64,000 nt of DNA. Source: Halostagnicola sp. A-GB9-2. GTDB taxonomy: Archaea > Halobacteriota > Halobacteria > Halobacteriales > Natrialbaceae. Shown in pieces: positions 27,267 to 53,705 of the stretch. The notes beneath the pieces are model-generated. The model was given only the letters and a program-made list of their open reading frames with translations, searched no databases and was not told the origin of the DNA. The number at the start of each line of letters is the position of its first letter. Within the stretch, counting starts at the first letter, position 1. Made by a program: the position numbers and the translations under genes. The stretch covers positions 1 through 64,000 of the forward strand of contig NZ_JASJOC010000007.1 in assembly GCF_030068615.1 (NCBI RefSeq). Direction: 5' to 3'.

Positions 27267-27378
27267 CGAATCACAACGGGAACAGACTCGAGGGCAAGGC
27301 GAATCGAGGAATTCCTCGAGAGACGCACTTTCGCACAGAATGGCCCGCTATCATTTGTGGTGTGTGAGGAACCCACAC

Positions 27379-27386
27379 ATTTATAG
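27379..27386 (+). promoter_or_regulatory. TATA box upstream of the first Dpp-type permease
   Basis: ATTTATAG is centred about 31 nt before the ATG at 27413. A GTG at 27386 in the same frame overlaps the box itself, so translation should begin at 27413. The permease may therefore have its own promoter in addition to read-through from the binding-protein gene. Confidence 0.6.
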
Positions 27387-27412
27387 TGGTTAGCGAGAGT
27401 AGTAATTTACGC

Positions 27413-29483: not shown

Positions 29484-29493
29484 AATTACAACA

Positions 29494-32715: not shown

Positions 32716-32722
32716 GTTTATG
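32716..32722 (+). promoter_or_regulatory. TATA box of the GH28 gene
   Basis: GTTTATG is centred about 28 nt before the ATG at 32747. The ATG at 32720 is part of the box and so is unlikely to be translated. Confidence 0.55.
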
Positions 32723-32746
32723 ACCTCACTCAAAAATAACCGAACG

Positions 32747-34303
32747 ATGCCCGAAATTCAGACCAGTCACTCCGATATTCGCGAGTTCGGCGCGACGGGA
32801 GACGGCGAGACTCGAGATACCGACGCGATACAGACCGCACTCGACGACTGCGCCGAGTCGGGCGGAACGGTTCGCGTTCCACCGGGAGAGTACCTGACAG
32901 GACCGCTTCGCGTCGGTGATAGGACATCGTTACACGTTGAAAACGGCGCAACGCTTCGATTCGTCAAGGACCACACTGCCTTCCCGACCGTCGAAAGTCG
33001 CTGGGAGGGATGGGATCAGTTCGGCTTCCATCCGTGTCTGTTCGTCGACAACGCCTCGAGCGTCGAGATAACCGGACGGGGCGTGATAGACGGCTCGGGC
33101 GAACACTGGTGGCAGTACAGAGATCTGCCCCGATCAGCGTACCCCGACGACCTCGAAGAACGCGTCGAGGAGTTCGACAAGCGAAACGAACTTCGGGACG
33201 GTGTGAGTTCGTTCACGCTCCGACCGCCGTTACTCCAGATCTACGATTCGGAGAACGTTAGCGTCTCCGGCGTAACGCTTCGAAACTCGCCGTTCTGGAA
33301 CACGCACGTCGTCTACTCCGAAGACGTGACGATAACCGACGTGCGGATAGTGAACCCCGCGGACGCACCGAACGGCGATGGGATCGACATCGACTCCTCG
33401 AGAAACGTTCGGGTCAGTGATACGTTCATCAACGCCGGTGACGACGCGATCTGTCTCAAATCGGGGAAGGACGAACAGGGGCGTGCGGTGGGCGAGCCGG
33501 CGGAGAACATCACGATTACTAACTGCACGGTCAAACACGGTCACGGCGGGGTCGTAATCGGAAGCGAAACCGCCGGCGACGTCCGCAACGTGACCGTGTC
33601 GAACTGTACGTTTACCGATACCGATCGAGGGATTCGAATCAAGTCCCAACGGGGTCGCGGCGGCGTGGTCGAGGATCTCCGCTTCGATACGATCGTCATG
33701 CGACAGGTTGCCTGTCCGTTTGTCATCAACGGGTACTATTTCACCCCGATCGACAGCGATCCGGAGCCGATCGACGAAGGAACGCCGATGGTCAGGAACG
33801 TCCACTTCCACAACATCAGCGCCCGAGACGTCGAATCCGCCGGATTCTTCGCCGGGCTTCCGGAGCGACGTTTCGAGGGCATCACGTTCGACGACGTCCA
33901 TATCGACGCGACGCGGTCGCTCGAGGCAACCGATCTCGATCCCGCGATGGCGTACGACTACGACCAGCGACACGGTTTCTTCTGTAAATCGATGCGAGAC
34001 GTGTCGTTTACCGACGTTCGCCTCCGAGTTCCGGACGACCCGGCGCTACGGTTCGAGGAAACCAATCTGGTGTCGATCGATGGCCTCGAGGTCGAGCGAG
34101 CGGGAGCGACCGACGGCCCGCTCATCGAACTCGATAACGTCGAAGAAACGCGAGTTCGGGGCTGTTCGCCACCGCCTGAGGACCGGCGGTTTCTCGAAGT
34201 GGCTGGTCCTGCTAGCCGCAGGCTCTCGCTCGTCGGCAATTACGGCGATCTTCGGGAAACGATCGATATTGGGACGGAGTGTGATGCGGTCGTCTTCGAA
34301 TAG
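32747..34303 (+). CDS. GH28 polygalacturonase, cytoplasmic
   Basis: A 518-aa right-handed beta-helix glycoside hydrolase. The four GH28 motifs are in order: NGDGID at about residue 209 (NTD-type), GDDAIC at 231 with the paired catalytic Asp, GHGG at 265 with the catalytic-site His, and RIK near 298. These enzymes hydrolyse alpha-1,4-galacturonic bonds; the exo-acting cytoplasmic forms release galacturonate from oligomers. There is no signal peptide, in contrast to the pectate lyase, so it should act on imported oligomers. The start is set by the TATA box position. Confidence 0.92.
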   Translation: MPEIQTSHSDIREFGATGDGETRDTDAIQTALDDCAESGGTVRVPPGEYLTGPLRVGDRTSLHVENGATLRFVKDHTAFPTVESRWEGWDQFGFHPCLFVDNASSVEITGRGVIDGSGEHWWQYRDLPRSAYPDDLEERVEEFDKRNELRDGVSSFTLRPPLLQIYDSENVSVSGVTLRNSPFWNTHVVYSEDVTITDVRIVNPADAPNGDGIDIDSSRNVRVSDTFINAGDDAICLKSGKDEQGRAVGEPAENITITNCTVKHGHGGVVIGSETAGDVRNVTVSNCTFTDTDRGIRIKSQRGRGGVVEDLRFDTIVMRQVACPFVINGYYFTPIDSDPEPIDEGTPMVRNVHFHNISARDVESAGFFAGLPERRFEGITFDDVHIDATRSLEATDLDPAMAYDYDQRHGFFCKSMRDVSFTDVRLRVPDDPALRFEETNLVSIDGLEVERAGATDGPLIELDNVEETRVRGCSPPPEDRRFLEVAGPASRRLSLVGNYGDLRETIDIGTECDAVVFE

Positions 34304-34851: not shown

Positions 34852-35586
34852 TTACGGGTCGTCGGTCGATTCAATCGACTCGACCGGTTCGACTTCGCCT
34901 CGAACGGCAGTCGCACCCGCCGTCGGGGCCGCCCAGTCGACCGCGTTCGAGAGCACACGACGAACCTCGTCCTGAAAGAAGATGGGGTACTCCTCGTGTC
35001 CCGGCCGAAACGCGAATATCCGACCGCGACCGCGCCGATAACAGAGCCCAGAGCGAAACACTTCCCCGCCTTCGAACCACGAGATAAAGACGGTTCGATC
35101 GGGTTCGGGAACGTCATAGGGTTCGCCGTACATTTCGGTCGACGGGATCTCAAAGGACTCCTCGAGTCCGTCGGCGATCGGATGACCGGGATCGGCGACC
35201 CAGATTCGTTCCGTTTCCCCACCGTGGCGGTACTTGATAGCACAGGTCGTTCCCATCAATCGCTCGAACGGTTTCGAGTTCTTTCCCGAGTGGACGGGGA
35301 CGAACCCCATCCCGCTGTGCACTCGATCGACCACGCGGTCTGCGATTTCGTCGCGGACCTCGCCGTTCGCACAGTGGGACCACCAGACGAGCACGTCCGT
35401 TTCCTCGAGGACGGCCTCGGTGAGTCCGTGGTCCGGTTCCTGTAACGTCGCCGTTTGGACAGTCCGGTTGCCGGACTCGAGACCATCGGCGATGGCGCCG
35501 TGGATGCCGTTGGGATACAGCTCACGAACGTGCTCGTCTTCGCGTTCGTGAACGTATTCGTTCCAAACTGTGACCTGAACTGTCAT
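34852..35586 (-). CDS. ThuA-like domain protein (second paralogue)
   Basis: A 244-aa ThuA-family protein, collinear with the one at 13026 (shared [57 protein letters not shown]). The start at 35586 is chosen because it aligns with the paralogue start; the frame is open 69 bp further. Convergent with the PCC gene. A duplicated pair in one sugar locus suggests related but distinct substrates. Confidence 0.88.
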   Translation of the reverse strand: MTVQVTVWNEYVHEREDEHVRELYPNGIHGAIADGLESGNRTVQTATLQEPDHGLTEAVLEETDVLVWWSHCANGEVRDEIADRVVDRVHSGMGFVPVHSGKNSKPFERLMGTTCAIKYRHGGETERIWVADPGHPIADGLEESFEIPSTEMYGEPYDVPEPDRTVFISWFEGGEVFRSGLCYRRGRGRIFAFRPGHEEYPIFFQDEVRRVLSNAVDWAAPTAGATAVRGEVEPVESIESTDDP

Positions 35587-35672
35587 ACGGAGAGTGGTCG
35601 GCCGAGAGCGATAAAAGTGTTCGGCTCGGCGATCGTTCGTCTCGTCGCCTCTCACGTTCTCGGGCTCAATCG

Positions 35673-36623
35673 TTACAGCGGGTCGAGTTCGCCGAGGTCT
35701 GCGAGGATTTCCCGGAGTTCCTGCCGTTCTTCCATTCCGATCTGTTGTTGTGGCGGCAAGAGCGTATCGTGCTCGAAAATCCCCTGCATCTCGAGGGCAA
35801 CTTTCGTTCGAGCGCGGTAGCGACCCTGCGGTTCGCCGAAGACGTGATTGGTCAGGGGCAACATCGTTTCGCGGATCTCCTTTGCACGCACCATATCGTC
35901 GTTTCGGACCGCCCGCAGCTTCTCGACCTGGAGTTCCGGAACCAGATTACCGTATCCGATGAGTCCGGTTTCCGAGCCGAGTTGGTACGCGTGGGTAAGG
36001 AACGTGTCGTTACCCGTCATCATAGTGAAGTCGTCTCTGGCGTGATCAAGGGCTCGTACGGTTTCCTCGTAGCGAACCGGATCGAACGACGCTTCCTTGA
36101 ACGCGATAACCGAAGGGTGCTCACAGATTTCGACGTGTGCGCTAATGGGAATGCCGGAGCTTCCCCACGTCGGGAACTGGAAGTTGATAAGTGGAATATC
36201 GACGGCGTCGGCGACGCGTTCGAAGTGCTCGACGGGCGTTCGTGGATCTTGATTTGCGTAGGTGTCGAGCGGGAGTAACATGACCGCGTCGGCACCGGCC
36301 TCCTGTGCCTCGCGCGCCATCTCGGCGGCCTGAAGCGAATTCTCGCCGTAGACGCCCGAGAAGACTGGGGTGTCAGCCGCGGCCTCCTTGTGAACGCGAA
36401 TAACCTCCTGTTTCATCTCTCGAGACAGGAGCTTGCACTCGCCGGTGTGTGCGTTCGCGATGACCGCGACGATGCCATCGATCCCGGTCAGGTACTCGAC
36501 GAGCCGTCGAAGGTCGGCTTCGGCGAGATCGTACTCGGGTTCCGGCGTCCACGGGGTCGCCGTTGCCGGGATGATGCCACCTGCAATCCGGTCTTTCAGC
36601 TCTCGAAATTCGTCGTATAGCAT
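35673..36623 (-). CDS. DapA/KdgD-family lyase
   Basis: A 316-aa TIM-barrel Schiff-base enzyme of the dihydrodipicolinate synthase/N-acetylneuraminate lyase family. The catalytic Lys is in VIAFKEAS, and a GGIIPATATPW segment replaces the usual N-terminal pyruvate-binding GTxxTPF. Candidates are 5-keto-4-deoxyglucarate dehydratase/decarboxylase, 2-keto-3-deoxy-sugar-acid aldolase or 2-keto-3-deoxypentonate dehydratase. Start at 36623 avoids a tail of seven residues. It is divergent from the IclR regulator gene, which suggests regulation by it. Confidence 0.85.
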   Translation of the reverse strand: MLYDEFRELKDRIAGGIIPATATPWTPEPEYDLAEADLRRLVEYLTGIDGIVAVIANAHTGECKLLSREMKQEVIRVHKEAAADTPVFSGVYGENSLQAAEMAREAQEAGADAVMLLPLDTYANQDPRTPVEHFERVADAVDIPLINFQFPTWGSSGIPISAHVEICEHPSVIAFKEASFDPVRYEETVRALDHARDDFTMMTGNDTFLTHAYQLGSETGLIGYGNLVPELQVEKLRAVRNDDMVRAKEIRETMLPLTNHVFGEPQGRYRARTKVALEMQGIFEHDTLLPPQQQIGMEERQELREILADLGELDPL

Positions 36624-36901
36624 GCGGTATGCGAACATCAGCATCGGTCACGAAAAAGATTTGGTTTCGTGTGACACGAACGAGAGTCGAGCGAGCAACC
36701 GTTGGCGGATACCACAGGTATGTTCTGTGGAACACGACTACCGTTTCGAAACCTAATCTTGGCCGCATCGCTTCGAACGCCAGACTGTCGAATCGAGGCG
36801 TTCGAAAGTCGTTGGCAGTGGCAACCGCAACCAACAACGAGTCGAGAACGTCCCGAAAATCGGAATACGACCAGTTGTTTAATTCCTTACATTTGAACAA
36901 C

Positions 36902-36931: not shown

Positions 36932-37705
36932 ATGTCACGCGCTATGGACGGAAACCCGGGCCGAACGATTCGGTCGGTCCAAATAGCCTTCAACATCATC
37001 GAGCAGTTACAGACGCAAAAGGGGGCCGGGGTCACGGAGCTCGCGACGGAGCTGGGTCACTCGAAGAGTACGATCCATAGCCATCTCCGAACGCTATGCG
37101 AGCGGGAGATCATCGTCCGCGAGGACGACGGCTATCGATTGAGCCTTCGCGTTCTCGATATGGCGAATCACGTGCGCAAACAGGTCGAGAACTACGACGT
37201 GATCAGAGAAGAAACCGATGAGTTGGCGGCCGAAACCGGAGAGATAGCCCAGTTCGGGATGGAAGAGCACCAAAAGATTTCGTACCTCTACAAGGCCAAC
37301 GGCGACAGAGCAGTCGTCACGGCGTCCCGAGTCGGAACACAACAACCCCTCCACTCGACATCCCTGGGCAAGACGGTTCTGGCGTTTCTACCACCCGAGC
37401 GAACAGAAGCGCTTATCGAGTCGATCGACTACACGACATCGACCGCCAAAACGGTCACCTGTCGCGACGAACTCCTCGAGGAACTCGAGCGAACGCGAGA
37501 ACGGGGGTACGCCATCGACGACGAGGAGAACTTCGAGGGGCTTCGCTGTGTCGCCGCACCCGTCAGAGACGGTGATTCGGTCATGGGTGCGATCAGTATC
37601 ACCGGTCCCTCGAGTCGGTTTACCGACGAACGGCTTCACGACGACCTCTCGAAGTACGTGATGCGAGCTGCGAACGTCATTGAGGTCAATACGAAGTTCT
37701 CGTAA
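36932..37705 (+). CDS. IclR-family transcriptional regulator
   Basis: A 257-aa regulator. The N-terminal winged helix (about residues 14-75; VTELATELGHSKSTIHSHLRTL is the recognition region) is followed by the IclR effector-binding domain with HSTSLGKTVLAF and GAISITGPSSRF signatures. IclR proteins sense small organic acids and aldonates. It stands between a DapA-family gene (divergent) and the enolase-superfamily gene (same strand), so these are the likely targets. Confidence 0.92.
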   Translation: MSRAMDGNPGRTIRSVQIAFNIIEQLQTQKGAGVTELATELGHSKSTIHSHLRTLCEREIIVREDDGYRLSLRVLDMANHVRKQVENYDVIREETDELAAETGEIAQFGMEEHQKISYLYKANGDRAVVTASRVGTQQPLHSTSLGKTVLAFLPPERTEALIESIDYTTSTAKTVTCRDELLEELERTRERGYAIDDEENFEGLRCVAAPVRDGDSVMGAISITGPSSRFTDERLHDDLSKYVMRAANVIEVNTKFS

Positions 37706-37806
37706 GCGACGAGGACAGGGAGACTCCAATACGAGCAGGTCCGCCGAAGGGGCACGATTATGTTGTGAGACGGTACCATTATGCTTCCGGGTTCGTACGT
37801 GTACGT

Positions 37807-39048
37807 ATGAAGGTTAGCGAAGTTACTGGATACGCGCTGTCATCACCGATCGAACCGCCGCAGGATCGGTCGTTCCACGGCGGGACGCGGCGGCTGAACA
37901 AGCGAGACGTCGTACTCGTCCTCGTCGAAACCGCGGACGGACGACAGGGGTTCTCGACGGCCGGGGCGAGCAGTTCCGAAATGCGCGAGTACTTCGAGGG
38001 TGACTCCCAGGGCACGTTCGCCGACGTTATCGGAGGATCCGTTGCAGAAGCTCTCGAGGGACGGACGGTAGATAAAATCGCAGACGCCGCCGGCTATATC
38101 TCCGAAACCGATCTACCAGCACACCTCCGAACGGAGGCCATTTCCGCGATCGACGTCGCCCTGTACGATCTCCGGGGAAAAGAACTCGGGATCCCGATCT
38201 ACGAGCTTCTCGCCGACGCGTACGGAAGCGAACCGACGAAACGGATGCCGTTGTACGCCAGCGCGGGAATGTACATGGAACCGGAAGGGTACGCCCGGCA
38301 GGCCGAGGTCATAGCGGAACTGGGATTTTTCGGGTACAAGTACCGTCCCGGGATCGGTCCCGATGGTGACCGCCGGACCATCGATCTCCTCGCGGACGCG
38401 CTCACAGAGACGGAGTTCATGCTCGATGTCCACACCTGGTGGAAGCTCCGTCGATCCTACGGCGACGATACCGTCCGAGAACTCGTCGAGTACGCGACGG
38501 AAGCCGGCGCGTACTGGATCGAGGAGCCGGTCAAGCCCAACGACCACGAGGGATACGCAACGCTCGCGGAAACCGGCGCTCCGCTCGCTGGGGGCGAGAG
38601 CAAAGACTCGCCGAACTCCCTCGTGGAACTGGGGAAAACCGGTGCAGTCGAGTTCTTGCAGGGAGACGTCCGTCACCACGAAGGGTTTACCGGATGTGAG
38701 CCGGCAGTCCAGTACTGTCACGGACGCGATGTCGAGTTCGTCCCGCACAACTTCGGAACGTGGCTCGGACTCCTCGCAAACGCCCATCTCGTTGCCGCGG
38801 CGCCGGGCACTCGATTGCTCGAGTATCCCGTCTTCGAGGACGATCCGCTCTTCGACGAACCAACGGATCCGGGAATGTACCCGTTCGACCTCGCGTTCGA
38901 TATCATCGAGGGCGAACCCGCGGTCGAGGACGGCCGATTGACCGTCCCGGACGGTCCCGGACTCGGCGTCGACGTGAACCTCGACGTGCTCGAGGAGTAC
39001 GCCTTCGTCGACGGTCCGTGGACGGAGTTTCACTACGACGACGAGTAG
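37807..39048 (+). CDS. enolase-superfamily sugar-acid dehydratase
   Basis: A 413-aa mandelate-racemase/muconate-lactonising-type enzyme. Metal ligands are Asp in FMLDVH, Glu in YWIEEPV and Glu in LAGGES. The base-providing region is GYKYRPG on one side and His in FVPHNFGTWLG on the other. The His-Asp type active site is that of aldonate/aldarate dehydratases. Start at 37807 (MKVSEVTGYALS) matches the family N-terminus. The neighbouring regulator, DapA-type enzymes and lactonase suggest galactarate or galactonate as substrate; not proven. Confidence 0.87.
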   Translation: MKVSEVTGYALSSPIEPPQDRSFHGGTRRLNKRDVVLVLVETADGRQGFSTAGASSSEMREYFEGDSQGTFADVIGGSVAEALEGRTVDKIADAAGYISETDLPAHLRTEAISAIDVALYDLRGKELGIPIYELLADAYGSEPTKRMPLYASAGMYMEPEGYARQAEVIAELGFFGYKYRPGIGPDGDRRTIDLLADALTETEFMLDVHTWWKLRRSYGDDTVRELVEYATEAGAYWIEEPVKPNDHEGYATLAETGAPLAGGESKDSPNSLVELGKTGAVEFLQGDVRHHEGFTGCEPAVQYCHGRDVEFVPHNFGTWLGLLANAHLVAAAPGTRLLEYPVFEDDPLFDEPTDPGMYPFDLAFDIIEGEPAVEDGRLTVPDGPGLGVDVNLDVLEEYAFVDGPWTEFHYDDE

Positions 39049-39088: not shown

Positions 39089-40027
39089 TCAGTTGATTAC
39101 CCGGTCGATATCGTCGTCGAGTTGGCTATAGAGTTCCTCCGCCCGTTGGGCCGTCTCCGGGGCGAGCGGTTTGATCGGTTCCCGAACGCGGCCGCCGTTG
39201 AGGCCGGCTAACTGTAACCCTTTTTTGACGGCTGAGACGCTGATCGCGCCGTCGATGTCGTTACCCTGCCCGTTTTCTTCCCTGAAGCGCTGGTAGGGGA
39301 GACAGATGTTTCGAAGCGTGCGTGCGTACTCCCAGTCGCCGCTCGAGAGCGCGTCGAAGAGCTCGAGACCGACCTCGGGGCGGAAGTTGCTCACGCCCGC
39401 CGAGAATCCCTCGACACCCTCCGCCCAGAACGAGACCGCGTACGGCTCGGCGAGACCGTCGACCCAGACGACGTCATCAGCTCCGGCGGCGACGCCTGCA
39501 CCGAGCTTCACCGAATCCGCAATCGCGTACTTGATACCGACGACGCCGTCAATGCGGGTCAGCGCATCCAGGTACTCGACCGACGGATCGAACCCGCGGA
39601 CGTACGGAACCAGCGGCGTCTCGGTCACGTGATCGAGTTCGCGATAGTAGTCGAGCAAGCCCTGCTCGTGAATATACGTGTGATCAGGCGGCATGATCAT
39701 CATCGCGTCGACGCCGCCGTCATCGTACGCGCGAATCAGGTCCTGAGCCTCGCTTGTACTGCCGCCGACCCCGGCGAGAACGCAGGCGTCGTCCGGGAGA
39801 GCGTCGACGCTCGTCTCGGCGACTGCCACTCGTTCGTCTCGAGAGAGCGAGTGATACTCGCTGATGTTGGCACTCGCGAGGAACGTTCCGACACCGCTTT
39901 CAGAAAGCGTCTGTGCGTTCTCGCGGAGTTTATCGTACTCAATGCGGTGCTGGTCGTCGAACGGTGTCAGGAGGCCAACGGCAACGCCGCGGAGGCAATC
40001 CTGTACCTGCTCGGCAGACAGTGACAT
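39089..40027 (-). CDS. DapA-family lyase (second)
   Basis: A 312-aa DapA/NanA-fold enzyme. GVAVGLLTPFDDQHRIEYD is the N-terminal strand and loop, PYVRG holds the Tyr, and the Schiff-base Lys is in VVGIKYAIAD. Like its neighbour at 35673 it is probably a keto-deoxy sugar acid aldolase or dehydratase. Start at 40027 (MSLSAEQVQ) is selected for family length; 18 upstream in-frame residues are not conserved in character. Convergent with the enolase-superfamily gene. Confidence 0.87.
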   Translation of the reverse strand: MSLSAEQVQDCLRGVAVGLLTPFDDQHRIEYDKLRENAQTLSESGVGTFLASANISEYHSLSRDERVAVAETSVDALPDDACVLAGVGGSTSEAQDLIRAYDDGGVDAMMIMPPDHTYIHEQGLLDYYRELDHVTETPLVPYVRGFDPSVEYLDALTRIDGVVGIKYAIADSVKLGAGVAAGADDVVWVDGLAEPYAVSFWAEGVEGFSAGVSNFRPEVGLELFDALSSGDWEYARTLRNICLPYQRFREENGQGNDIDGAISVSAVKKGLQLAGLNGGRVREPIKPLAPETAQRAEELYSQLDDDIDRVIN

Positions 40028-40369
40028 GAAATTACTGTCCGCCGCAGGGAGTATAAACCCATCGGCGAAAATCGAACGCAAAACGCGGTATCCCCAGTAC
40101 GTGTAGTCGAGTTCCTCGAGACAGCGTTCGGTCCGTCCGGCACTACGTTTGGCGTCCCAAAAACGGACCCGCTATAGTCTGATCGACACAGCTTCGGTCG
40201 ACCGCGTCGTCTCAACGGCAAGCCCGCTTATCACAACGGCGACGGCGCTGATGTGGGCGAGCTACTTGCACCGGTGAACGAATTAACTCGAGGAGCCGGT
40301 TCGCTTCGACGGTTGACGGTCAGTTCGACCGACCGGTGCTTGGTAGGCTCTTACTCACTACCAGACGAA

Positions 40370-41461
40370 TTACCGCAGTTTCAGGGCCTCGACACAGACC
40401 GGTTTCTGCACGGTGACCGACGCCACCGCGGAAAGCGAACCGGAATCAGCGTCGATTCGGTAGGCGACGACGTTCTCGCCGTGCTGGTTCGCGACGAAGA
40501 GGTACTCGCCGTTCGGGGCGAGAGTGAACGTGCGCGGCGTCCGGCCTCGAGCGGACACGTGATCCATGGGGCGGAGGAGATTACCACTACTGTCGGTCTC
40601 GAAGACGGCGATACTGTCGTGGCCCCGATTGGTCGCGTACACCCACCGGCCCGTCGGATGAACGTGAATATCGGCAGCGGTATTGTCGTCGTCGAAAGCT
40701 GGCGGGAGGGTCGAAACGGAGTGAACCGGTTCGAGTTCGCCCGTGGTCGACTGCCGTTCGAGAACGGTCACCGTCGAATCGAGTTCGTTCACCACGTACG
40801 CAAACCGACCGTCGGGATGAAAGTCCAGGTGTCGGGGACCTGCTCCCTCGTGAATCGAAACTCCGTTCGCTGTGGCCTCGAGGATCGGGGGTTCGTCGCA
40901 ACCGGTTCCTGAGATCACGTCACTCGATGCGCATCGGTAGCTCTCGATGCAATCGGTGCCGAGATCTGGAACGTAAACGAAGCGGTTCTCCGGCCCGAAG
41001 CGGGCGGCGTGGGGATGCGGTTCGCGCTGTCGATTCGAATCGACGCTCGAGCCCTCGTGCTCGAGAACGGTGCAGGTATCGCTCAGACGGCCGTCAGCTT
41101 CGATCGGATACGCGGCGACGGTTCCCCCCTGATAATTGGCGAGCGTGACGACCCGTCCGTCCGGGTCGACGTCGACGTAACACGGTCCGGTGCCCCGACT
41201 TGGCTTCCGGTTCAGCGCTCCCAGCGCACCGGTTCGGTCGTCGAACTCGAATGCGGCAAGCACGCCGCCGTCGACGCGTTCGACCGCGTAGAGCGACCGC
41301 CGATCCGGGTGGACCGCGACGAAGGAGGGGTTCTCGAGGGGTGTCGAGGCTTGCCGACGGAATCGGTCGGCGTCTGGATCGAAGCGGTATCCGTGTACGG
41401 CCCCGTCGCTTTCGCCTGCGGCTGAGCAAACGACTACCAGAAACGAACGCTGACTGGTCAC
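40370..41461 (-). CDS. beta-propeller lactonase (6-phosphogluconolactonase-type)
   Basis: A 363-aa seven-bladed propeller of the lactonase family typified by YbhE. Repeated blades with GAVHGYRFD, LVVVCSAAGES-type first strand, GPRHLDFHPDGRFAYVVNELDSTV, and GRTPRTFTLAPNGEYLFVANQHGENV are clear. Start is taken at the GTG at 41461, preceded by AAGAAGGTGG, since the frame continues into the neighbouring gene without lactonase character. In this locus it could hydrolyse a uronate-derived lactone such as galactaro-1,4-lactone; a general aldonolactonase is also possible. Confidence 0.82.
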   Translation of the reverse strand: MTSQRSFLVVVCSAAGESDGAVHGYRFDPDADRFRRQASTPLENPSFVAVHPDRRSLYAVERVDGGVLAAFEFDDRTGALGALNRKPSRGTGPCYVDVDPDGRVVTLANYQGGTVAAYPIEADGRLSDTCTVLEHEGSSVDSNRQREPHPHAARFGPENRFVYVPDLGTDCIESYRCASSDVISGTGCDEPPILEATANGVSIHEGAGPRHLDFHPDGRFAYVVNELDSTVTVLERQSTTGELEPVHSVSTLPPAFDDDNTAADIHVHPTGRWVYATNRGHDSIAVFETDSSGNLLRPMDHVSARGRTPRTFTLAPNGEYLFVANQHGENVVAYRIDADSGSLSAVASVTVQKPVCVEALKLR

Positions 41462-41634
41462 ACCACCTTCTTTGACTACTCGCCGCTTAACTTCACCGAT
41501 GAACGCCGTCAGCCAGTTGTTTCGGATACGGGGTTTTCGGTACCGCAACTCATTGTGGACGAGTGTTTCGGCAGGTCGATCACCACTGCCACGGACGAAT
41601 ACCGGTCCTGCCCGAATATCGATTCCACTCCCGA

Positions 41635-43527
41635 TCACCGATTCCACGGGAGCGCGTACGTCGGATCGTTCGTGAACCGATCCAGCTCCGCCGAGAGAGA
41701 CAGGCGAGTACCCGACGGTATCGAGACGCGAAGGGTGTTCGAGTCGACGCGCGACGATCCGTCGTTGTAGCTGACGGTCTCGAACTCGTGTTCGGCGTAG
41801 GCACCCGCCTGCACGATCAGTTCGCGGTCTCGCCCACCACCGTTGACGAGCGTCAGATCGATGCCGTCAGCATCGACGTTCGTGACGAGTGCGGCAACGT
41901 CTTCGGGTAACCCGGGCCGTTGGCGGCCCGCATCGAAGTGACGAATCTGTGCCATCACGAGTCCGCCGTAGTACACCGGCTGTGGGGCACCCATCGTCAG
42001 TTGAAGCAAACCGCGGTGGAAGACGGGGTTTCGGTCGCGAAGGTAGTCCTCGTCCAACTCTGCCCGAGCGGTATCCTCCCGGCGCATAAGCTCGAGTTGT
42101 TCCTGGACGCGCTCGTGATTCGCTTTCATGAGACGCGAGGGGTAATCGGGAAACTCGCCGTCGAGGTAGGCGAGCCAGGCGTACTCGTGGCCCGCACCGT
42201 GCTTGGTCGACGCTCTCGGGTCCACGCGCCGCCAATCCTGTTTGCTCCAGTCTCGAAGCCGACGGACCCGTTCACGGTCGGCGTCGGACATCGACATGTA
42301 CCAGAGGTGAACGGCGTAGGGGTCGTCCCTATGGGGTTTGAACTCGTACCAGCCGTCGCGCCACAGCACTTCGCCATCGTCTTCGGTGAGGACGCCGCCT
42401 GCGTCGTAGTGGTAGTCCCCTTCGCCGCCGTACTTGTGTGGAACGTAGAGCGTGTCGTGGACCGCATCCTCGCTCACCTCGATCCCGTTTTCGATGAGGA
42501 TATCGAGTTGCGAGCGCGGGAACTCGAGAAACTCTCTCTCACCCTCGAGCAGAACGGCGTTCTCCGCCGCGACCATCGGGCCGATGCCAACATAGTGCCA
42601 GCCGCCCCACGACCAGCCGTAGTAGCCGCCGTACCACCGCCCGTCAGTGTACTCGCCGATCTCGCCCGATCGTCCGACGTTGTCAGGGATGATCCCGCCG
42701 TTTTCCGCCGTTCGCTCGCGCCAGGCCTCGAGATAGGTGATCGCCCACTCCCGGTACGTCTCGTCTCCGGTGTGGAGATACGCGTTGGTCATCAGGCTCG
42801 TAATGTTGAGATTGAGCGGGATATCCCCTTTTCCACACCGTTCGTTCAACACCTCGAAGAGCCGATCTTCGGTCCCGGGATCGAGAAGATCTGCGGCCTC
42901 CTCGAACTCGAGGTCTCGCCAGGGAAGGCCGTGACTCGCCCACCGGTAGTCGGCACCGTACGGATGGTGTTCGTACGCCGAAAAATCGGCGTGATCCGGC
43001 CCCGCTCCACCGTTCATCGGACCGCGAACGAGGCGATTCTCCGCGTCGTAATTGTTCGCGTCTGCGTCGTCGAAGTACAGCCCAGCGAACCGCTCGGCCC
43101 GTTCGACGACGGCTGCGTCGTCCGGAGCCGCCAGCCCCATGTTGTACGTGTACAGATTCCCCTCGCCCATGTGGAACCAGTCTCGACAGTGTTCGAACTC
43201 GTCGACAACCATCGGATGCCCGAACGGCGTCGGAGTCTCGCTCGCCCGGCGCAGGGCACCGTTGTACACGTCTCGAGCGTGCTCGAGAACTGATTCGTCG
43301 CCGCCCATCGCGTAGACCAGTGGCCAATTGTACACTCCCTCCACGATATCGTCGAAGCCGTCGGAGCCGACGTGACCGTCGGGAGGCCACAGCGGCTCGC
43401 CGCTGTCAGCAACGTAGTCGTCTACGAAGCGGTCGACCGACGTTCGCATCACCTCGAAGAGGCTTCGTTGGAGCCTCGACCACTCGGGCTGGGTTTTCCG
43501 CTGCGTACGTGCCGTTATCTCGAACAT
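41635..43527 (-). CDS. large cytoplasmic protein of unknown function, probably helical-barrel carbohydrate enzyme
   Basis: A 630-aa protein without signal peptide or membrane segments. I do not recognise the family. Visible features: many aromatic and acidic active-site-like clusters (FHMGEGNLYTYNMG, GRWYGGYYGWSWGGWHY, YVPHKYGG), heptad-like helices between them, and a C-terminal beta domain of about 90 residues with GLVMAQIRHF and a DLTLVNGGGRD strand. The layout, helical barrel plus beta-sandwich, resembles known alpha/alpha-toroid lyases and hydrolases. It overlaps no gene; the lactonase gene is 173 bp downstream on the same strand. A carbohydrate-active role is inference from context. Confidence 0.75.
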   Translation of the reverse strand: MFEITARTQRKTQPEWSRLQRSLFEVMRTSVDRFVDDYVADSGEPLWPPDGHVGSDGFDDIVEGVYNWPLVYAMGGDESVLEHARDVYNGALRRASETPTPFGHPMVVDEFEHCRDWFHMGEGNLYTYNMGLAAPDDAAVVERAERFAGLYFDDADANNYDAENRLVRGPMNGGAGPDHADFSAYEHHPYGADYRWASHGLPWRDLEFEEAADLLDPGTEDRLFEVLNERCGKGDIPLNLNITSLMTNAYLHTGDETYREWAITYLEAWRERTAENGGIIPDNVGRSGEIGEYTDGRWYGGYYGWSWGGWHYVGIGPMVAAENAVLLEGEREFLEFPRSQLDILIENGIEVSEDAVHDTLYVPHKYGGEGDYHYDAGGVLTEDDGEVLWRDGWYEFKPHRDDPYAVHLWYMSMSDADRERVRRLRDWSKQDWRRVDPRASTKHGAGHEYAWLAYLDGEFPDYPSRLMKANHERVQEQLELMRREDTARAELDEDYLRDRNPVFHRGLLQLTMGAPQPVYYGGLVMAQIRHFDAGRQRPGLPEDVAALVTNVDADGIDLTLVNGGGRDRELIVQAGAYAEHEFETVSYNDGSSRVDSNTLRVSIPSGTRLSLSAELDRFTNDPTYALPWNR

Positions 43528-47113: not shown

Positions 47114-49357
47114 TTAGTTTTCCGAGAACGTTACACGGACGATCGAAAACGGCGGAACGGAGACGGTCGTCGAGCGACCATCGACGGAAACGGAATTTTG
47201 GGATGGAACCACGGTTTCCGGCTCTTCGAACGTGTTTTCCGCGGCCATCGTCTCGCCGGCGAGCGTCGTGACCGTCGCCTCCGGGCCGGGATCGAATCCG
47301 TCCTCGAGTTCGATCGTGGCGTCAATCTCCCCGGCCGTCGCGTCGCGGTGGACCAATTCGACGACCAGTTCGTCGCCCGACCGGCTCGAGACTGCGAGTG
47401 GATCGAGAACGGGAACCGCCGAGACGGTGGGGAGTTCCCCGAACAGGTCTTCAGTGTCGGTCGCGAACGCCGTCTCGGTATCGTAGGTATCACAGCTGAG
47501 TTCGACCGCCAGCGGCCTCGCGTCAAATAGCGACGACCCCATTCGGTGATAGTAGTAACACGGATCCGCCCAGACGCGTTCGTGGTGCTTCCGAAGCCCG
47601 CCACCGTGGTTTCCGGCACCCGAGTGAGTGAGCATGTCGACGGCACCCGAACGAACGCTCTCGTGGACGAACGTCGCGTCGTAGACGGCCTCGGAAACGG
47701 ATTTGTTGGTCGGTAGTTCCGGCGACTCTTCTATGCCCTCCCACTGTTCCCGATCCGGGAACGTAAAGAGCTGTAACTCGGTGAGCGCGATCCGCGGGTC
47801 GTCGACGTCGGCCGCCCGCATGTCCTCGAGAACGTCGTCGTACTCGTCCATCACCTGATCGGCGAGCGCCATGTGAGCGTTGTACAGTTCGGTTTGGTCG
47901 GTCTCCGGTCCGACGTGCGTTCCGACGAGAACGTGGTCAGTGAGCCAATCAACACGATCCGCGGCCGTCGACAGAACGGGATCGTTCCAGTCGGTCAGCC
48001 GGTTTCCACACGCCAGTACTTCGATATCGTCGTCCACATCGACCATCGCTTCGTGAAATCGGGCGAATCGATCCGCGTAGCCGTCGGGTGTCGTCCAACT
48101 GACTTGCCACGGGCCGTACACCTCGTTTCCGACCTCCCAGTAGGTAACATCGAAGGACTCCGGATGGCCGTGTGCCGCGCGGAGCGCGCCCATGGCCGTC
48201 TCCGTGGAGCCGTTACAGTACTCGACCCATCGGGCGGCCTCCTCGGCGGACCCGTCCCCAGCATTGACGCAGATCATCGGCTCGCAGCCGATCCGTTCGC
48301 AGAACTCCAGAAACTCGACCGTTCCGAACAGGTTCGGCTCGAGGCCGTCCCATGCCGGATTTGGCTTCGTCGGTCGTTCCTCGGTCGGACCGACGCCATC
48401 TCGCCAGCGATAGCCCGAAACGAAGTTGCCGCCGGGCCACCGAAACACGGGTAACTCTGCGTCGCGGAGATACTCGACTATTTCCGGGTCGGCCCTATCG
48501 ACGTGATCGTCCGGATACAACAGCGCCGCGTCGAGTACGACGTTTGCCGGCGAGTCGGTCGTCACGCTGAAGGCGAAAAGCGTGTCACGACCGGTCTCGA
48601 TATCGTCCGGAACCCGAAGGTCGAAGTCAATACTATCCCACGATTTATCTACGGACACCGTGGTGTCGTCGAGGGTGCGCTTGAGTTCGCCCGTCGGCCC
48701 GACTTCGCGGAGCGAAACGGTGAGCGTCGTCGGCGACGCGGCTCGGGCCGTGATCGATCCTTCGAAATCGTGCGTGCGATGGGTCGGAAGATGACACCAC
48801 TGGGCGATGCCGGCCGAATGCTCCAGCGACCGATCGTCCGCCGATTCAGAGCAGGGAGAGAGTTCCGTAGCCGATACCTCGAGGCGCTGAGCACGGTCGC
48901 CGGCGATTCCCACGTCCGGGCTCGTCGTGATGTCGACGCCGTCGATCTCGGCGACCCCGTTGATCTCGTCGTCGCCGACCGGGAACCACCAGAGGGCGGT
49001 CGCGCTACGGTAGGCCTCGATGAGCCGGGTCGAGTCGGGATACTCTCGAGTATCGGCGTACGCTTCGATTCGTTCAGCTTTCGTCTCGGCGTCGTGGACA
49101 GACGGTCGTCCGCCATCGACGGACGCGTGTTCGACCTGGAACTTCCAGTTTCCGAACGTCGGGTTGTGGAGGATTTGGGCGGTGAAGGAATTCTTCGCGT
49201 TCCGCGTCGAATAGAGGTGTTCACCGAACTTTCCGAACAGTTTCGGATCGATCGGTTCTGCGGAACGCTCCGTCGGATCGACCACGATCGTCGCCGTATC
49301 GCCGTGGTCGTCGTCGCTGGCCGCCGGGTGGTGCGTTAACAACTGTCGACTCGTCAT
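47114..49357 (-). CDS. GH51 alpha-L-arabinofuranosidase
   Basis: A 747-aa enzyme removing L-arabinose from arabinan and arabinoxylan fragments. The TIM-barrel core has the acid/base Glu412 in WEVGNE and the nucleophile Glu527 in LTELQL, a spacing of 115 residues like known GH51 enzymes. Residues about 40-60 hold IDPKLFGKFGEHLY, the family opening. It is longer than the usual 500 residues because a beta-sandwich/CBM-like stretch is inserted between residues about 90 and 270. No signal peptide, so cytoplasmic. A TAATAAG box (49380-49386) lies about 26 nt before the ATG. It would feed the pentose pathway encoded to the right. Confidence 0.92.
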   Translation of the reverse strand: MTSRQLLTHHPAASDDDHGDTATIVVDPTERSAEPIDPKLFGKFGEHLYSTRNAKNSFTAQILHNPTFGNWKFQVEHASVDGGRPSVHDAETKAERIEAYADTREYPDSTRLIEAYRSATALWWFPVGDDEINGVAEIDGVDITTSPDVGIAGDRAQRLEVSATELSPCSESADDRSLEHSAGIAQWCHLPTHRTHDFEGSITARAASPTTLTVSLREVGPTGELKRTLDDTTVSVDKSWDSIDFDLRVPDDIETGRDTLFAFSVTTDSPANVVLDAALLYPDDHVDRADPEIVEYLRDAELPVFRWPGGNFVSGYRWRDGVGPTEERPTKPNPAWDGLEPNLFGTVEFLEFCERIGCEPMICVNAGDGSAEEAARWVEYCNGSTETAMGALRAAHGHPESFDVTYWEVGNEVYGPWQVSWTTPDGYADRFARFHEAMVDVDDDIEVLACGNRLTDWNDPVLSTAADRVDWLTDHVLVGTHVGPETDQTELYNAHMALADQVMDEYDDVLEDMRAADVDDPRIALTELQLFTFPDREQWEGIEESPELPTNKSVSEAVYDATFVHESVRSGAVDMLTHSGAGNHGGGLRKHHERVWADPCYYYHRMGSSLFDARPLAVELSCDTYDTETAFATDTEDLFGELPTVSAVPVLDPLAVSSRSGDELVVELVHRDATAGEIDATIELEDGFDPGPEATVTTLAGETMAAENTFEEPETVVPSQNSVSVDGRSTTVSVPPFSIVRVTFSEN

Positions 49358-49460
49358 AGTTATGAATTTTCGCCGAGGGTAATAAGTTCATTCCTCCCGG
49401 AACGATCGAAGAACGTTGCTCCACGAGGGAAGATCCCACGGAAGACTCGACCGCCGACCG

Positions 49461-49889
49461 CTATGGCTCGTCCAATATTGTAACGACCGGTCGATCAGCG
49501 TCCAACAGTACCGATTGGGTGACGCTCCCGAACAACGCCTTCCCGACTGGGGAACGAGACCGACCGCCGATGACGAGGTAATTCGCGCCAACCTCGTCAG
49601 CGTAGCCAAGAATTTCCTCGGCGGGATCGCCTACTCGACCGACAGGTTCGTAGTCGTCGGTGACGCCCGAGGAGACATCGGCGATGACTTCCTCGGCGAG
49701 TTTCTGCGCTTGCTCTGCGGACAGGGATTCGACCTCGTTCATGTACTGGTTGACGAGGTAGGCGTGGTCGCCCGCCTCGTAGACGAGGATCACCTCGAGC
49801 GGTTCGTCGAACCGTTCGGCGAGCGTGCTCCCTTCGGAAATGACGCTATCCGAGCCGTCCTCCCCGTCGATCGCTGCGATGATTGTCAT
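49461..49889 (-). CDS. universal stress protein (UspA family)
   Basis: A 142-aa UspA-fold protein, MTIIAAIDGEDGSD at the start and GGRSRSPVGKALFGSVTQSVL for nucleotide binding near the end. It is 92 bp downstream of the GntP permease gene on the same strand, an arrangement often seen for UspA proteins beside haloarchaeal transporters. Probably co-transcribed with it. Confidence 0.9.
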   Translation of the reverse strand: MTIIAAIDGEDGSDSVISEGSTLAERFDEPLEVILVYEAGDHAYLVNQYMNEVESLSAEQAQKLAEEVIADVSSGVTDDYEPVGRVGDPAEEILGYADEVGANYLVIGGRSRSPVGKALFGSVTQSVLLDADRPVVTILDEP

Positions 49890-49981
49890 ACGCAGACGAT
49901 TTCACGTCGACCCGTAAATAGATTTGCGCCCGAAAAGGACCGTCGGAGACGAGAAGGATAGAAACGAGAGACAAACGGATA

Positions 49982-51361
49982 CTAGGTCAGCGGGAAGAGC
50001 GACGAGAGAACCATCACGACGGCGAACCCAGTAATTGAGACGATTGTGGTAAGCGCGGTCCAGATTTTGAACGTCTCCTCCTGGGTCAATCCGCCGATTT
50101 CTTTGACGATCCAGAATCCGCTGTCGTTGTACCAGGAGAAAATCGTTCCACCTGCCCCGATGATCATGACGAGGTAAACGGGGTGGACCGACAGGTCACC
50201 GACGAGCGGAGCCATAATGCCTGCAGTCGTGAGGAGGGCGACCGTGGCCGACCCCTGGGCAATACGGATCGTCGCGGCGATAACGAATCCGGCGACCAAT
50301 AGCGGAATGCCGATACCTTCCAACGTGGTCGCGATGTAGTCACCGATTCCAGACAGCGCGAGCATCCCGCCGAAGGCACCACCGGCGGCGGTGATCGCAG
50401 CAATGTGTCCGCCGCTCTGAAGCGATTCGACTAGTTCGTCGGACCACACCTCTCGGCTGAGCGATTCCATCCGGTAGTAGGTGATCGCCGCGGCGAGGGC
50501 GGCGGCGGTCAACGCGATGTTCGCATCACCGACAAAGCTAGATGCCACGTCCGCAGCGCCACCTTCGACGAGGAATCCGGCTTCGATCAACGTATCCACC
50601 GTCGTGTTCGAGGCGATCAAAAACACCGCCAGCAAAATTGGAAGCATCGCTTCGACCATCCCCGGTAATTTGGCTGTCGGACGGTCGGCCAACTCCTCGA
50701 CGCGTTCGACCGACGAACCCATCGTCTCTCGAAGCGGAATCTCCATCTTGCTGTTGATCCACTTTCCGTACAGGACACCAGAAACGAATACCGTGGGAAG
50801 AGCAACGACGAGACCCACCAATATCGTCGCGCCGACATCGACGCCGAGCTCGAGCGCCACTGCGAGCGGTCCGGGCGTCGGCGGGATAAAGCCGTGTGCC
50901 GTTACTCCGGCCGCGCCGACGATAGTGATGAACAGGGCGTAATCTCGGCCCGTTCGTGCACGCATCGAACGGGCCAACGGCGCTAGCAAAAAGAACACGT
51001 TGTCGAAGAAGACGGGGATAGCGAGTACGCCGCTCGAGCCACCCAATGCGAGATATGAGTTCCCCTCGCTCGTAAACGATTGGAACCAACGAACGATTCG
51101 TTCTGCGGCACCGCTTTCCATCATCGTTTTCCCGATTATGGCAGCCATGAGAATCGGGATACCGATGCTGATCATCGTCTCACCGAAGCCGGTTGCCGTC
51201 TCCTCAGGAACCTGGCTCAACGGCACTTCGGCCGTCGCCGCACCGACGACAATCGTCGCGATTACCAGCCCGATAAACGCGGGGACGCGCAACCAGACCA
51301 GCAACGCGACGACGACTATCAGCCCGATTCCGAAGACAACGAGTGGGTTTTCGAATGCCAT
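49982..51361 (-). CDS. GntP-family gluconate-type permease
   Basis: A 459-aa H+ symporter with about 12-14 membrane helices. Start at MAFENPLVVFGIG (51361) matches the family; upstream in-frame residues are polar and unlike a membrane protein. Signatures include GLVIATIVVG, MESGAAERIVRWF, GVLAIPVFFDNVFFLLAPLA, HGFIPPTPGPL and the late WYNDSGFWIV. GntP proteins take up gluconate and related sugar acids (gluconate, xylonate, galactonate). The adjacent xylonate pathway points to an aldonate. Confidence 0.92.
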   Translation of the reverse strand: MAFENPLVVFGIGLIVVVALLVWLRVPAFIGLVIATIVVGAATAEVPLSQVPEETATGFGETMISIGIPILMAAIIGKTMMESGAAERIVRWFQSFTSEGNSYLALGGSSGVLAIPVFFDNVFFLLAPLARSMRARTGRDYALFITIVGAAGVTAHGFIPPTPGPLAVALELGVDVGATILVGLVVALPTVFVSGVLYGKWINSKMEIPLRETMGSSVERVEELADRPTAKLPGMVEAMLPILLAVFLIASNTTVDTLIEAGFLVEGGAADVASSFVGDANIALTAAALAAAITYYRMESLSREVWSDELVESLQSGGHIAAITAAGGAFGGMLALSGIGDYIATTLEGIGIPLLVAGFVIAATIRIAQGSATVALLTTAGIMAPLVGDLSVHPVYLVMIIGAGGTIFSWYNDSGFWIVKEIGGLTQEETFKIWTALTTIVSITGFAVVMVLSSLFPLT

Positions 51362-51506
51362 ACTCACACATTCAGAGGCACTATAAAATAATCTTTGGTG
51401 ATTATATCCACACATTACCGAAGCCGAGGAGTCAATCACCACTATCCGTTGTTCGACAAAAAGAGAATTTGCTGAACGATCAACAGAGTCCAGAGACCGT
51501 CGGAAC

Positions 51507-52550
51507 TTACTCTCGAAGGACACTCACGTCAAAGACTGGCTTACAGGTGTCGCCCGCCAAAAAAGCCTCGAACGCCTCGTCGGCCTCGAGAAGCGAATAC
51601 CGGTCGTCGAGAAACGTCTCGAGGTCGACATCGCCGGATTCGATGAGTCTGAGCGATCGTTCGAAGTCCTCCCACGTCGAGGCGTAGGAACACTGAAGAT
51701 CGATTTCGGCTCTGACCAACGGCGAGTACGCCATCGTGGTCTCACCGGTCTGGCCGACCATCACGATCTGACCGCCCTTCCGAACCTCATCGACGGACAT
51801 CGTCAGTCCGGAGGGATGTCCGGTGGTGTCGAAGACGACGTCGTAGCCGGCTCCGTCGGTCAGTTCGTCACGAATACCCTCGAGATCGTCTTCTTCGACG
51901 TTGAGCGTCGGGAATCCGAGCTCTTCGGCGAGTGGGAGTCGATAACTCGTGTCGCTACCGACGCCTGCGACGACGACGTCACCGCCCTGAGAGTCCGCTA
52001 TCTGTGCAGTCAGGAGACCGATCGGACCTGGTCCCGCAACGAGCACGCGGTCGCCAGCCCCGACTCGAGAGTTCTGGATGACCGCTCGAGCGCCGATACT
52101 TGTCGGCTCGACGAGCGCGGCGTGTCGCGGATCGACCCCGTCCTGAACGTGCTGGAGGGCGGTTTCCGGAACGGCGATGTAGCCAGCGTACGCGCCGTCG
52201 TGATCGACGCCGGTGATCACCGCGTCCTGACAGACGTTTTCCTCTCCGAGCTTACACTGATAGCACTCTCCACAACCCCTGATGGGGCGCTCGACGACTC
52301 GATCGCCGGTCTGGAACTCCGTGACGTCGTCGCCGGCCTCGACGACGGTCCCGGTGTACTCGTGCCCGATGACGGTCGGAAGCGCCATTCGTTCGAAGGC
52401 GGATTTGAACTTGTAGATTCCCGCATCGCTGCCACAGAGACCCGCGTAGTCGACTTCTATCAGCGCTTCTCCCGGACCTGGATCGGGGCGCTGTCGATCG
52501 ACGAGTTCCATCTGCCCGTACTCTCGGCTCGTTTTCGCAAGTGCGCGCAT
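51507..52550 (-). CDS. zinc-dependent sugar/polyol dehydrogenase (MDR family)
   Basis: A 347-aa medium-chain dehydrogenase. Catalytic zinc ligands Cys39, His63 and Glu64; structural zinc Cys93, Cys96, Cys99 and Cys107; NAD motif GPGPIG near residues 170-175. The layout is that of sorbitol/L-iditol and threonine dehydrogenases, which oxidise a secondary alcohol. Located 75 bp after the xylose dehydrogenase gene, so likely a polyol or pentose-related dehydrogenase. Substrate not resolved. Confidence 0.9.
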   Translation of the reverse strand: MRALAKTSREYGQMELVDRQRPDPGPGEALIEVDYAGLCGSDAGIYKFKSAFERMALPTVIGHEYTGTVVEAGDDVTEFQTGDRVVERPIRGCGECYQCKLGEENVCQDAVITGVDHDGAYAGYIAVPETALQHVQDGVDPRHAALVEPTSIGARAVIQNSRVGAGDRVLVAGPGPIGLLTAQIADSQGGDVVVAGVGSDTSYRLPLAEELGFPTLNVEEDDLEGIRDELTDGAGYDVVFDTTGHPSGLTMSVDEVRKGGQIVMVGQTGETTMAYSPLVRAEIDLQCSYASTWEDFERSLRLIESGDVDLETFLDDRYSLLEADEAFEAFLAGDTCKPVFDVSVLRE

Positions 52551-52625
52551 ACTGTCGACTGGTCGGTCGAGTGGTATAATTCTATTGGACCGTCTCGACG
52601 CTGGGAACGGATCATGTTCGAAGAG

Positions 52626-53705
52626 CTATTCGAGATCGACGCGTTCGTCGCGTTCGGCCGCCTCGTGGATCGCTCGAATCGTTCGCATGTCCTCGAGCCC
52701 GTGGCGACCGTCCGGAAGGATCGGTTCGCCGCCGAGCACTCGATCGGCGAAGTAGTCGAACTCCTCGCGCATCTCTTCGACCGCGCCATAATCGACGTCC
52801 TCGAATTCGGCACGGAGGCTTCCCGAAGAGAGGTGAAGCGTCGCCTCGCCGTGGAACGCGGGGGCGAGTTCGATCGTTCCCTCGGTGCCGATTATTTTGA
52901 GTTGCGTATCCGTCTGGGCGTGTTGACTGGTCGTACAGACGACCGGCAGATCGCCCTCGAGAGTCAGCGTAAACGTCGCGTTCTGGTCGGGAACGTCGCT
53001 AAAGGCGTCCGCGGACGAGGACATTCGAGCGCTGACGGCGATCGGATCCCGCTCAAGGAGGAATCGAGCGGTATTGATCGGATAGATACCAAGATCCATC
53101 ACGGACGTCCCGTATCCGGTAACGTCGGAATCGAGCCGCCACTGATCGGGGTCGGGATTCATCTCGAGAATCGGTTGGGTATTGTTTCCGTAGACGTGCG
53201 TCGGTTCCCCAATGAAGCCGTCGTCGATCAACTCCTTGGCTCGGCGAACCGCCGGTTCGGTGTGCATTCGGTAGGCAGTCATCAGCGGAATGTCGGCCGC
53301 TTCAGCCGCCTCGACGAGTCGTTCGGCGCGCTCGACGCTGGCCTCGAGTGGTTTCTCACAGAGCACCGCCTTCCCCAGGTCAGCGGCGGTTTCGACGTAC
53401 TCGAGGTGATAGGCGTTGGGCGTGCCGACGTAGATCGCGTCGTAGGAGTCGACCGCGGCGCCGTCGTGGAAGTCGGCATACGTGAGACCGCGTTCGACGT
53501 CGTTTTCGTCCGCCAGGCGATCGGCCTTCTCCTGAGTCGAACTGACGAGTACGCTCGTTTCGCAGTGGGACGTCTGTTCGATCGCGGGGATAACGACATC
53601 GACTGTCCACCAGCCGAGACCGACGAGAGCGAAGCGAACTGTGCCGTCTGCCCCCGTTTCCCAGTCGCGTTCTTCGAACCGGCCGAGCACGGAATGTGTT
53701 TCCAT
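52626..53705 (-). CDS. xacA: D-xylose/pentose 1-dehydrogenase (Gfo/Idh/MocA family)
   Basis: A 359-aa enzyme oxidising D-xylose (and probably L-arabinose) to the lactone with NADP+, the first step of haloarchaeal pentose breakdown. The start at METHSVLGRFEERDW is chosen because it matches the known Haloarcula/Haloferax enzyme; 72 upstream in-frame codons do not. Diagnostic segments are VGLGWWTVDVVIPAI, VLVSSTQEKA, VGTPNAYHLEYVETAA, CEKPLEAS and MDLGIYPINTARFLL. A TTTTATT-type box at 53729-53736 lies 27 nt before the ATG. It is one of the strongest identifications here. Confidence 0.92.
   Translation of the reverse strand: METHSVLGRFEERDWETGADGTVRFALVGLGWWTVDVVIPAIEQTSHCETSVLVSSTQEKADRLADENDVERGLTYADFHDGAAVDSYDAIYVGTPNAYHLEYVETAADLGKAVLCEKPLEASVERAERLVEAAEAADIPLMTAYRMHTEPAVRRAKELIDDGFIGEPTHVYGNNTQPILEMNPDPDQWRLDSDVTGYGTSVMDLGIYPINTARFLLERDPIAVSARMSSSADAFSDVPDQNATFTLTLEGDLPVVCTTSQHAQTDTQLKIIGTEGTIELAPAFHGEATLHLSSGSLRAEFEDVDYGAVEEMREEFDYFADRVLGGEPILPDGRHGLEDMRTIRAIHEAAERDERVDLE

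Follow-up and report, generated by a model that had tools for sequence, protein, structure and literature searches.

A protein family of haloarchaea and bacteria linked to pectin genes, with a Halostagnicola member proposed to act on oligogalacturonides

Gene content of the locus

The window, a 64,000-nucleotide stretch from Halostagnicola sp. A-GB9-2, contains a gene for a 630-aa protein, from here on c0, together with the following genes:

25446-31710, plus strand: peptide-type ABC importer (binding protein 25446-27266; permeases 27386-28408 and 28386-29483; ATPase 29494-31710), the same clusters occurring near c0 in other loci
32720-34303, plus strand: GH28 polygalacturonase-type enzyme without evident signal peptide (family search)
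34852-35655, minus strand: ThuA-domain protein (family search), the most frequent neighbour of c0
35673-36644, minus strand: second DHDPS-family protein (family search)
36932-37705, plus strand: IclR-type regulator (family search)
37765-39048, plus strand: enolase-superfamily (MR/MLE) acid-sugar dehydratase or cycloisomerase (family search)
39089-40081, minus strand: KdgD-like dehydratase/aldolase of the DHDPS family, best NCBIfam match PRK03620, below cut-off
40370-41647, minus strand: seven-bladed beta-propeller lactonase (PF10282) that may be a galactaro-lactonase; its true start probably lies downstream of the GTG given in the ORF list
41635-43527, minus strand: c0, ATG at 43527 (ORF, translation and homologues)

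The preliminary description had reported a full-length, well-biased gene. The 630-aa ORF fits 41635-43527 exactly, its codon-position GC of 0.68/0.43/0.77 is gene-like and its homologues are full length, all in agreement with that report. A plus-strand reading of the exact span 41635-43527 was rejected for its internal stops. A plus-strand ORF of 457 aa at 41920-43293 was also rejected, its codon-position GC (0.77/0.42/0.69) not being gene-like and the conserved protein being that of the minus strand. The c0 protein is acidic, with 115 D/E compared to 60 K/R residues; strong acidity is expected of a haloarchaeal cytoplasmic protein. By-eye inspection of the haloarchaeal protein revealed no evident signal peptide, hence c0 of the window is probably cytoplasmic.

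On the minus strand, c0 is followed by the PF10282 lactonase and the KdgD-like gene; the possible galactaro-lactonase role of the PF10282 protein was deduced from PMC6353982. The position of c0 beside a lactonase in a pectin locus had been pointed out before. The PF10282 gene is indeed present at 40370-41647, but only here among 27 haloarchaeal loci does it lie near c0, and the lactonase was rejected as a conserved partner (1/27). The assignment to a pectin locus, in turn, is supported by the GH28 gene at 32720-34303, by the gene neighbourhoods and by the near-perfect co-occurrence with strong GH28 matches presented below.

Further along the window, at 47114-53921, there are a GH51-type arabinofuranosidase, a GntP-type permease, a zinc alcohol dehydrogenase and the D-xylose 1-dehydrogenase Gfo6 (above cut-off), which suggests pentose use adjoining the pectin genes. 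The genome has a further uronate region (G000:C34:186000-242000; L049, L050, L055, L056) with GH88/105, PL22, GH4, MR/MLE and Udh-like genes, an additional KdgD-like gene and an ABC importer. The Udh/Azf-like dehydrogenase of contig C34 shows 65% to the neighbour cluster, and the contig also encodes an aldehyde dehydrogenase. The oxidative galacturonate pathway comprises Udh, lactonase/isomerase, cycloisomerase/dehydratase, KdgD and 2-ketoglutarate semialdehyde dehydrogenase, and its substrate is saturated galacturonate (PMC6353982). The predicted genes of the window and of contig C34 fit this pathway.

A family without a name and its predicted fold

Single-sequence searches with c0 against Pfam-A, NCBIfam and PDB sequences yielded no match, nor did a 15-sequence c0 profile against the PDB. 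Pfam scans of each of 15 family members returned no family match, and single members matched weakly to C5-epim_C (0.07) and TAT. Annotated plasmid copies are called 'hypothetical protein'. The earlier label 'unrecognised', without a named family, thus applies in Pfam, NCBIfam and PDB sequences, and no confident match to a characterised non-carbohydrate family came up, the finding that had been named as contrary to a carbohydrate-related role.

A scan of genome contigs identified 26 full-length haloarchaeal relatives with 64-75% identity to c0 and one acidobacterial relative. Further haloarchaeal copies, including those in plasmid records, reach ~79% identity (plasmids up to 78.5%), and many are plasmid-borne; one distant haloarchaeal genome has two copies with 49% and 41% identity. 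Bacterial relatives share 28-37% identity over 97-100% of the length, those in plasmid records originating from Nonomuraea (36%), Streptomyces (33-35%), Sphingobium (29%) and Asticcacaulis (28%). Among 199 sampled genomes of Acidobacteriota, four encode c0 relatives, three of them with ~5-6 paralogues each (G262, G286 and G312, with one tandem pair, L082). No relatives were found in viral contigs. Judged from these alignments, c0 is a member of a real family common to haloarchaea and some bacteria that has no name in Pfam, NCBIfam or the PDB. The family may correspond to an unpublished or very recent CAZy family, the naming having been compared with Pfam, NCBIfam and PDB.

The family alignment contains 58 columns that are invariant in archaea and bacteria, including D56, D59, D60, E63, D116, H119, E122, Y160, D235, N239, W298, W305, D417, N500, E579 and H580. 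The only invariant histidines are H119, the sole one in the barrel, and H580 in the beta domain; an invariant cysteine was not found in the alignment. Conserved segments and predicted domains are located as follows:

43324-43368, minus strand: residues 54-68, invariant D56, D59, D60, E63 and W68
43162-43182, minus strand: residues 116-122, invariant D116, W117, H119 and E122
42811-42825, minus strand: residues 235-239, invariant D235 and N239
42613-42636, minus strand: residues 298-305, invariant W298, G304 and W305, the aromatic cluster noticed in the preliminary description
41953-43494, minus strand: residues 12-525, predicted alpha/alpha toroid (AlphaFold and Foldseek)
41680-41946, minus strand: residues 528-616, predicted C-terminal beta-sandwich (AlphaFold, confidence >90 for most residues)

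Two aromatic-acidic clusters had been highlighted previously, FHMGEGNLYTYNMG at about residues 118-131 and GRWYGGYYGWSWGGWHY at about residues 296-312. Both are present in the translation and both rank among the most conserved parts of the family.

A helical-barrel-like core with a C-terminal beta domain had been proposed from the sequence and was seen again in two AlphaFold models of moderate confidence. Model 1, computed with 28 sequences (pLDDT 74.6, pTM 0.84, several loops low), has helical hairpins and, after them, a C-terminal domain of eight strands. Model 2, with an acidobacterial relative as query (69.8, pTM 0.77), has the same layout and resolves the active site no more sharply. In Foldseek searches of the PDB, AGE/YihS enzymes were on top for model 1 (6.7e-4; 3gt5, YihS, mannose isomerase) and GH127 was on top over the full length for model 2 (1.7e-4, TM <0.35), with further matches to GH76 and GH47. 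These matches are weak, with TM-scores mostly of 0.2-0.5, and the nearest structures are nearly all sugar-active toroids. An alpha/alpha toroid with a C-terminal beta-sandwich is a credible fold class for c0, and no active site is transferable onto the models from any solved relative. The D56-E63 and D116-E122 loops could, together with D235, form an acid/base pair or a metal site; it is in the loops bearing the conserved residues that model confidence is lowest.

GH127 beta-L-arabinofuranosidases (HypBA1, Ara127N) have an alpha/alpha barrel with beta domains behind it, a layout that c0 may share according to its models. The active site of GH127 contains a zinc-bound cysteine, whereas c0 has no conserved cysteine, and none of 15 family members matched the GH127 Pfam families PF07944 and PF20736 at E-values up to 1. 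The AGE superfamily (YihS, mannose isomerase, cellobiose 2-epimerase) has a toroid like the one predicted for c0 and supplied the top matches of model 1. The presence of 3gt5, YihS and mannose isomerase there raises a slight chance that c0 isomerises or epimerises free uronate in the manner of AGE/YihS enzymes. AGE-type isomerases use several active-site histidines. In c0, however, only H119 and H580 are invariant, the latter in the beta domain, leaving one invariant histidine in the barrel, and the protein differs further from the superfamily in its greater length and its beta domain.

Neighbourhoods and co-occurrence in haloarchaea

Gene neighbourhoods were compared by ORF clustering over 36 loci, and neighbours within 8 kb of c0 were counted in 27 haloarchaeal loci. 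ThuA was found in 18 loci, MR/MLE in 16, IclR in 13, Gfo/Idh in 12, pectate-lyase-type beta-helix and KdgD-like proteins in 11 each, and GH4, universal stress protein and GH28 in 9 each. Since ThuA is present in 158/244 Halobacteria genomes, its co-occurrence with c0 at the genome level is uninformative.

The same 244 Halobacteria genomes were examined for strong GH28 matches (>140 bits). Intact c0 occurs in 14 of them, with broken remnants in two more (G170, G189). Strong GH28 occurs in 16, that is in all 14 genomes with intact c0 and in 2/230 others (G097, G135), an association with a Fisher p of 6e-21 by genome and 4e-9 by genus. In 13 of the 14 genomes both genes reside on one contig within about 45 kb. 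Part of the co-occurrence is due to this physical linkage, with many copies on plasmids, and to shared transfer. Taken together, gene neighbourhoods and GH28 co-occurrence provide a strong tie between c0 and pectin.

The remnants are located at G170:C4:238755-239441 and G189:C63:116788-117437; one of these genomes lacks strong GH28 and the other lacks a GH28 match among the matches listed. This is consistent with joint loss.

Strong GH88/105 matches were found in 10/14 c0 genomes compared to 14/230 others, which is above chance, and PL22 in 6/14 compared to 6/230. The unsaturated uronyl hydrolases GH88/GH105 (PF07470) have an alpha/alpha barrel like that predicted for c0, are often present in the same genomes and act on uronate oligosaccharides, as proposed for c0; in contrast to it, they are shorter and lack a C-terminal beta domain. 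Removal by c0 of the unsaturated end residue left by pectate lyase, the GH88/GH105 task, would allow GH28 to digest the saturated remainder and would explain the pairing of c0 and GH28 without redundancy. The four c0 genomes without strong GH88/105, though c0 loci often carry pectate lyase, are in line with such a role. We nevertheless judge it decidedly unlikely, as the other ten also possess GH88/105 and as G097 and G135 have pectate lyase and neither c0 nor GH88/105. Moreover, similarity to GH105 was not detectable: c0 has no Pfam match to PF07470, and hhalign against a GH88/105 protein of the same genome gave a probability of 2%.

The co-occurrence with GH88/105 also bears on a different reaction. 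Former GH154 uronate dehydratases and P29_PDnc, two unrelated families, were recently recognised as acting on uronates at the ends of oligosaccharides (PMC12269599, PMC8511951). A comparable uronate dehydratase would make an unsaturated end residue from the saturated one, on which GH88/105 could then act. That c0 works in this way is very improbable, because a strong GH88/105 partner is missing from four c0 genomes, so that this part of the GH154-type system is not always present, and because c0 is associated far more closely with GH28. Searches of Pfam and of PDB sequences found no similarity of c0 to such dehydratases.

The two GH28-strong genomes without c0, G097 and G135, keep ThuA, IclR, MR/MLE, KdgD-like and Udh-like genes, the ABC importer, pectate lyase and GH28, and both carry a PL2 pectate lyase. 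Full-length PL2 was detected in only 4/244 genomes, all GH28-strong, two of the 14 c0 genomes among them. This hints that PL2 may take over the role of c0 in genomes without it (p=0.05). PL2 pectate lyases have an alpha/alpha barrel. Likenesses between PL2 (PF06917) and c0 are the likely intracellular task on oligogalacturonides and the same type of haloarchaeal locus; c0 differs in its added beta domain. Haloarchaeal PL2 proteins without evident signal peptide are encoded at L046:15457-16992, L047:2681-4270 and L042:7373-9067.

These data lend some weight to c0 as an exo-acting oligogalacturonate lyase, a functional stand-in for PL2/PL22 that works by beta-elimination, with a metal perhaps held by the D56/D59/D60/E63 and D116/H119/E122 cluster. 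The invariant H119, Y160 and N239 could serve elimination, and a toroid with a beta-sheet domain is the layout of many lyase families (PMC12269599). Still, we consider a lyase unlikely: PL2 is present in 2/14 c0 genomes as well, c0 shows no Pfam match or profile similarity to it (hhalign probability 1.6%), saturated galacturonate is what the linked pathway uses, and KduI is missing. KduI, needed where unsaturated uronate monomers are used in the ordinary way, was above cut-off in none of 30 haloarchaeal genomes tested (c0-, GH28- or GH88/105-positive). Many of these 30 genomes encode GH88/105, PL22 or pectate lyase. One idea is that C1 oxidation of 5-keto-4-deoxyuronate in haloarchaea would yield the KdgD substrate directly.

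Bacterial loci, proposed function and significance

In Asticcacaulis and Sphingobium, c0 has an apparent Tat-like export signal at its N-terminus and follows directly behind an MFS gene, stop and start sharing one base. The Asticcacaulis MFS protein is above the cut-off of TIGR00893 (acid-sugar transporters). Genes for a TonB receptor, a LysR protein and a KdgD that exceeds its equivalog cut-off lie close to c0 on both plasmids, and each plasmid has GH28 elsewhere. The coupling of an exported enzyme to an MFS importer and KdgD points to release of a monomeric acid sugar by c0 in these Alphaproteobacteria. A monomer isomerase would not need export beside a monomer importer, a further argument against an isomerase of free uronate. 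In Streptomyces NBC_01450, a Pel9A-like beta-helix protein with CBM6 is encoded ~4.5 kb from c0, and the gene for a sugar-binding protein lies between the two. The S. mirabilis locus has a fuconolactonase-type amidohydrolase and the Nonomuraea locus an MR/DHDPS pair. The acidobacterial paralogues lie near GH127, sulfatase, ADP-ribosylglycohydrolase-like and Gfo/Idh genes, and given these other contexts the wider family probably has other substrates as well.

The preliminary description had suggested that c0 may be a new lyase or hydrolase for oligogalacturonide or other pectin fragments, a suggestion that the family, fold and context data support in part. We propose, with a probability of roughly 0.4, that c0 is an exo-acting oligogalacturonide hydrolase of a new family that releases galacturonate in the cytoplasm. 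In this scheme an extracellular pectate lyase would make oligogalacturonides, which the ABC transporter would import into the haloarchaeal cell. There c0 would trim the chain ends hydrolytically, alongside GH28, to monomeric galacturonate, which uronate dehydrogenase, then a lactonase or cycloisomerase/dehydratase, and finally KdgD could convert towards 2-ketoglutarate.

A hydrolase is our first choice because the product should be a monomer for the oxidative uronate route, for which saturated galacturonate fits best, and because KduI is absent from the c0 genomes tested. It is also favoured by the co-occurrence with GH28, by neighbours such as pectate lyase, GH28, GH4, MR/MLE and KdgD-like genes, by the resemblance of the toroid and beta-sandwich models to sugar-active toroids, and by the invariant carboxylates in predicted loops, which fit an acid/base pair. 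Hydrolysis rather than elimination is the least certain part. The PL2 lyase of both c0-less GH28 loci hints at elimination. A third hydrolase looks redundant, since GH28 and GH4 could already release galacturonate. The low confidence of the conserved-residue loops, the weak structural matches, the inflation of co-occurrence by plasmid linkage and the different contexts of the acidobacterial paralogues weaken the hydrolase reading further.

Somewhat short of an even chance, in our estimate, is the broader view that this cross-domain family provides a missing archaeal pectin step through a reaction on oligogalacturonides or related uronate oligomers, be it hydrolysis by a new toroid, unsaturated-end hydrolysis or dehydration, with the Acidobacteriota paralogues acting on other glycans. 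The fold class and the pathway are already known; new is a family that is nameless in Pfam, NCBIfam and PDB sequences. A literature search for a toroid-type exolytic enzyme on homogalacturonan found none described for this polymer.

Efforts to culture haloarchaea on pectin have failed, although these archaea possess pectate lyases, GH28 and galacturonate genes (PMC9726719, PMC12343721). With its near-perfect co-occurrence with GH28, c0 makes a concrete candidate to account for what is unexplained in the haloarchaeal pectin pathway. If active, it would represent a new carbohydrate-active family across archaea and bacteria, and many 'hypothetical' genes could be annotated, including the expanded paralogue sets of the Acidobacteriota.
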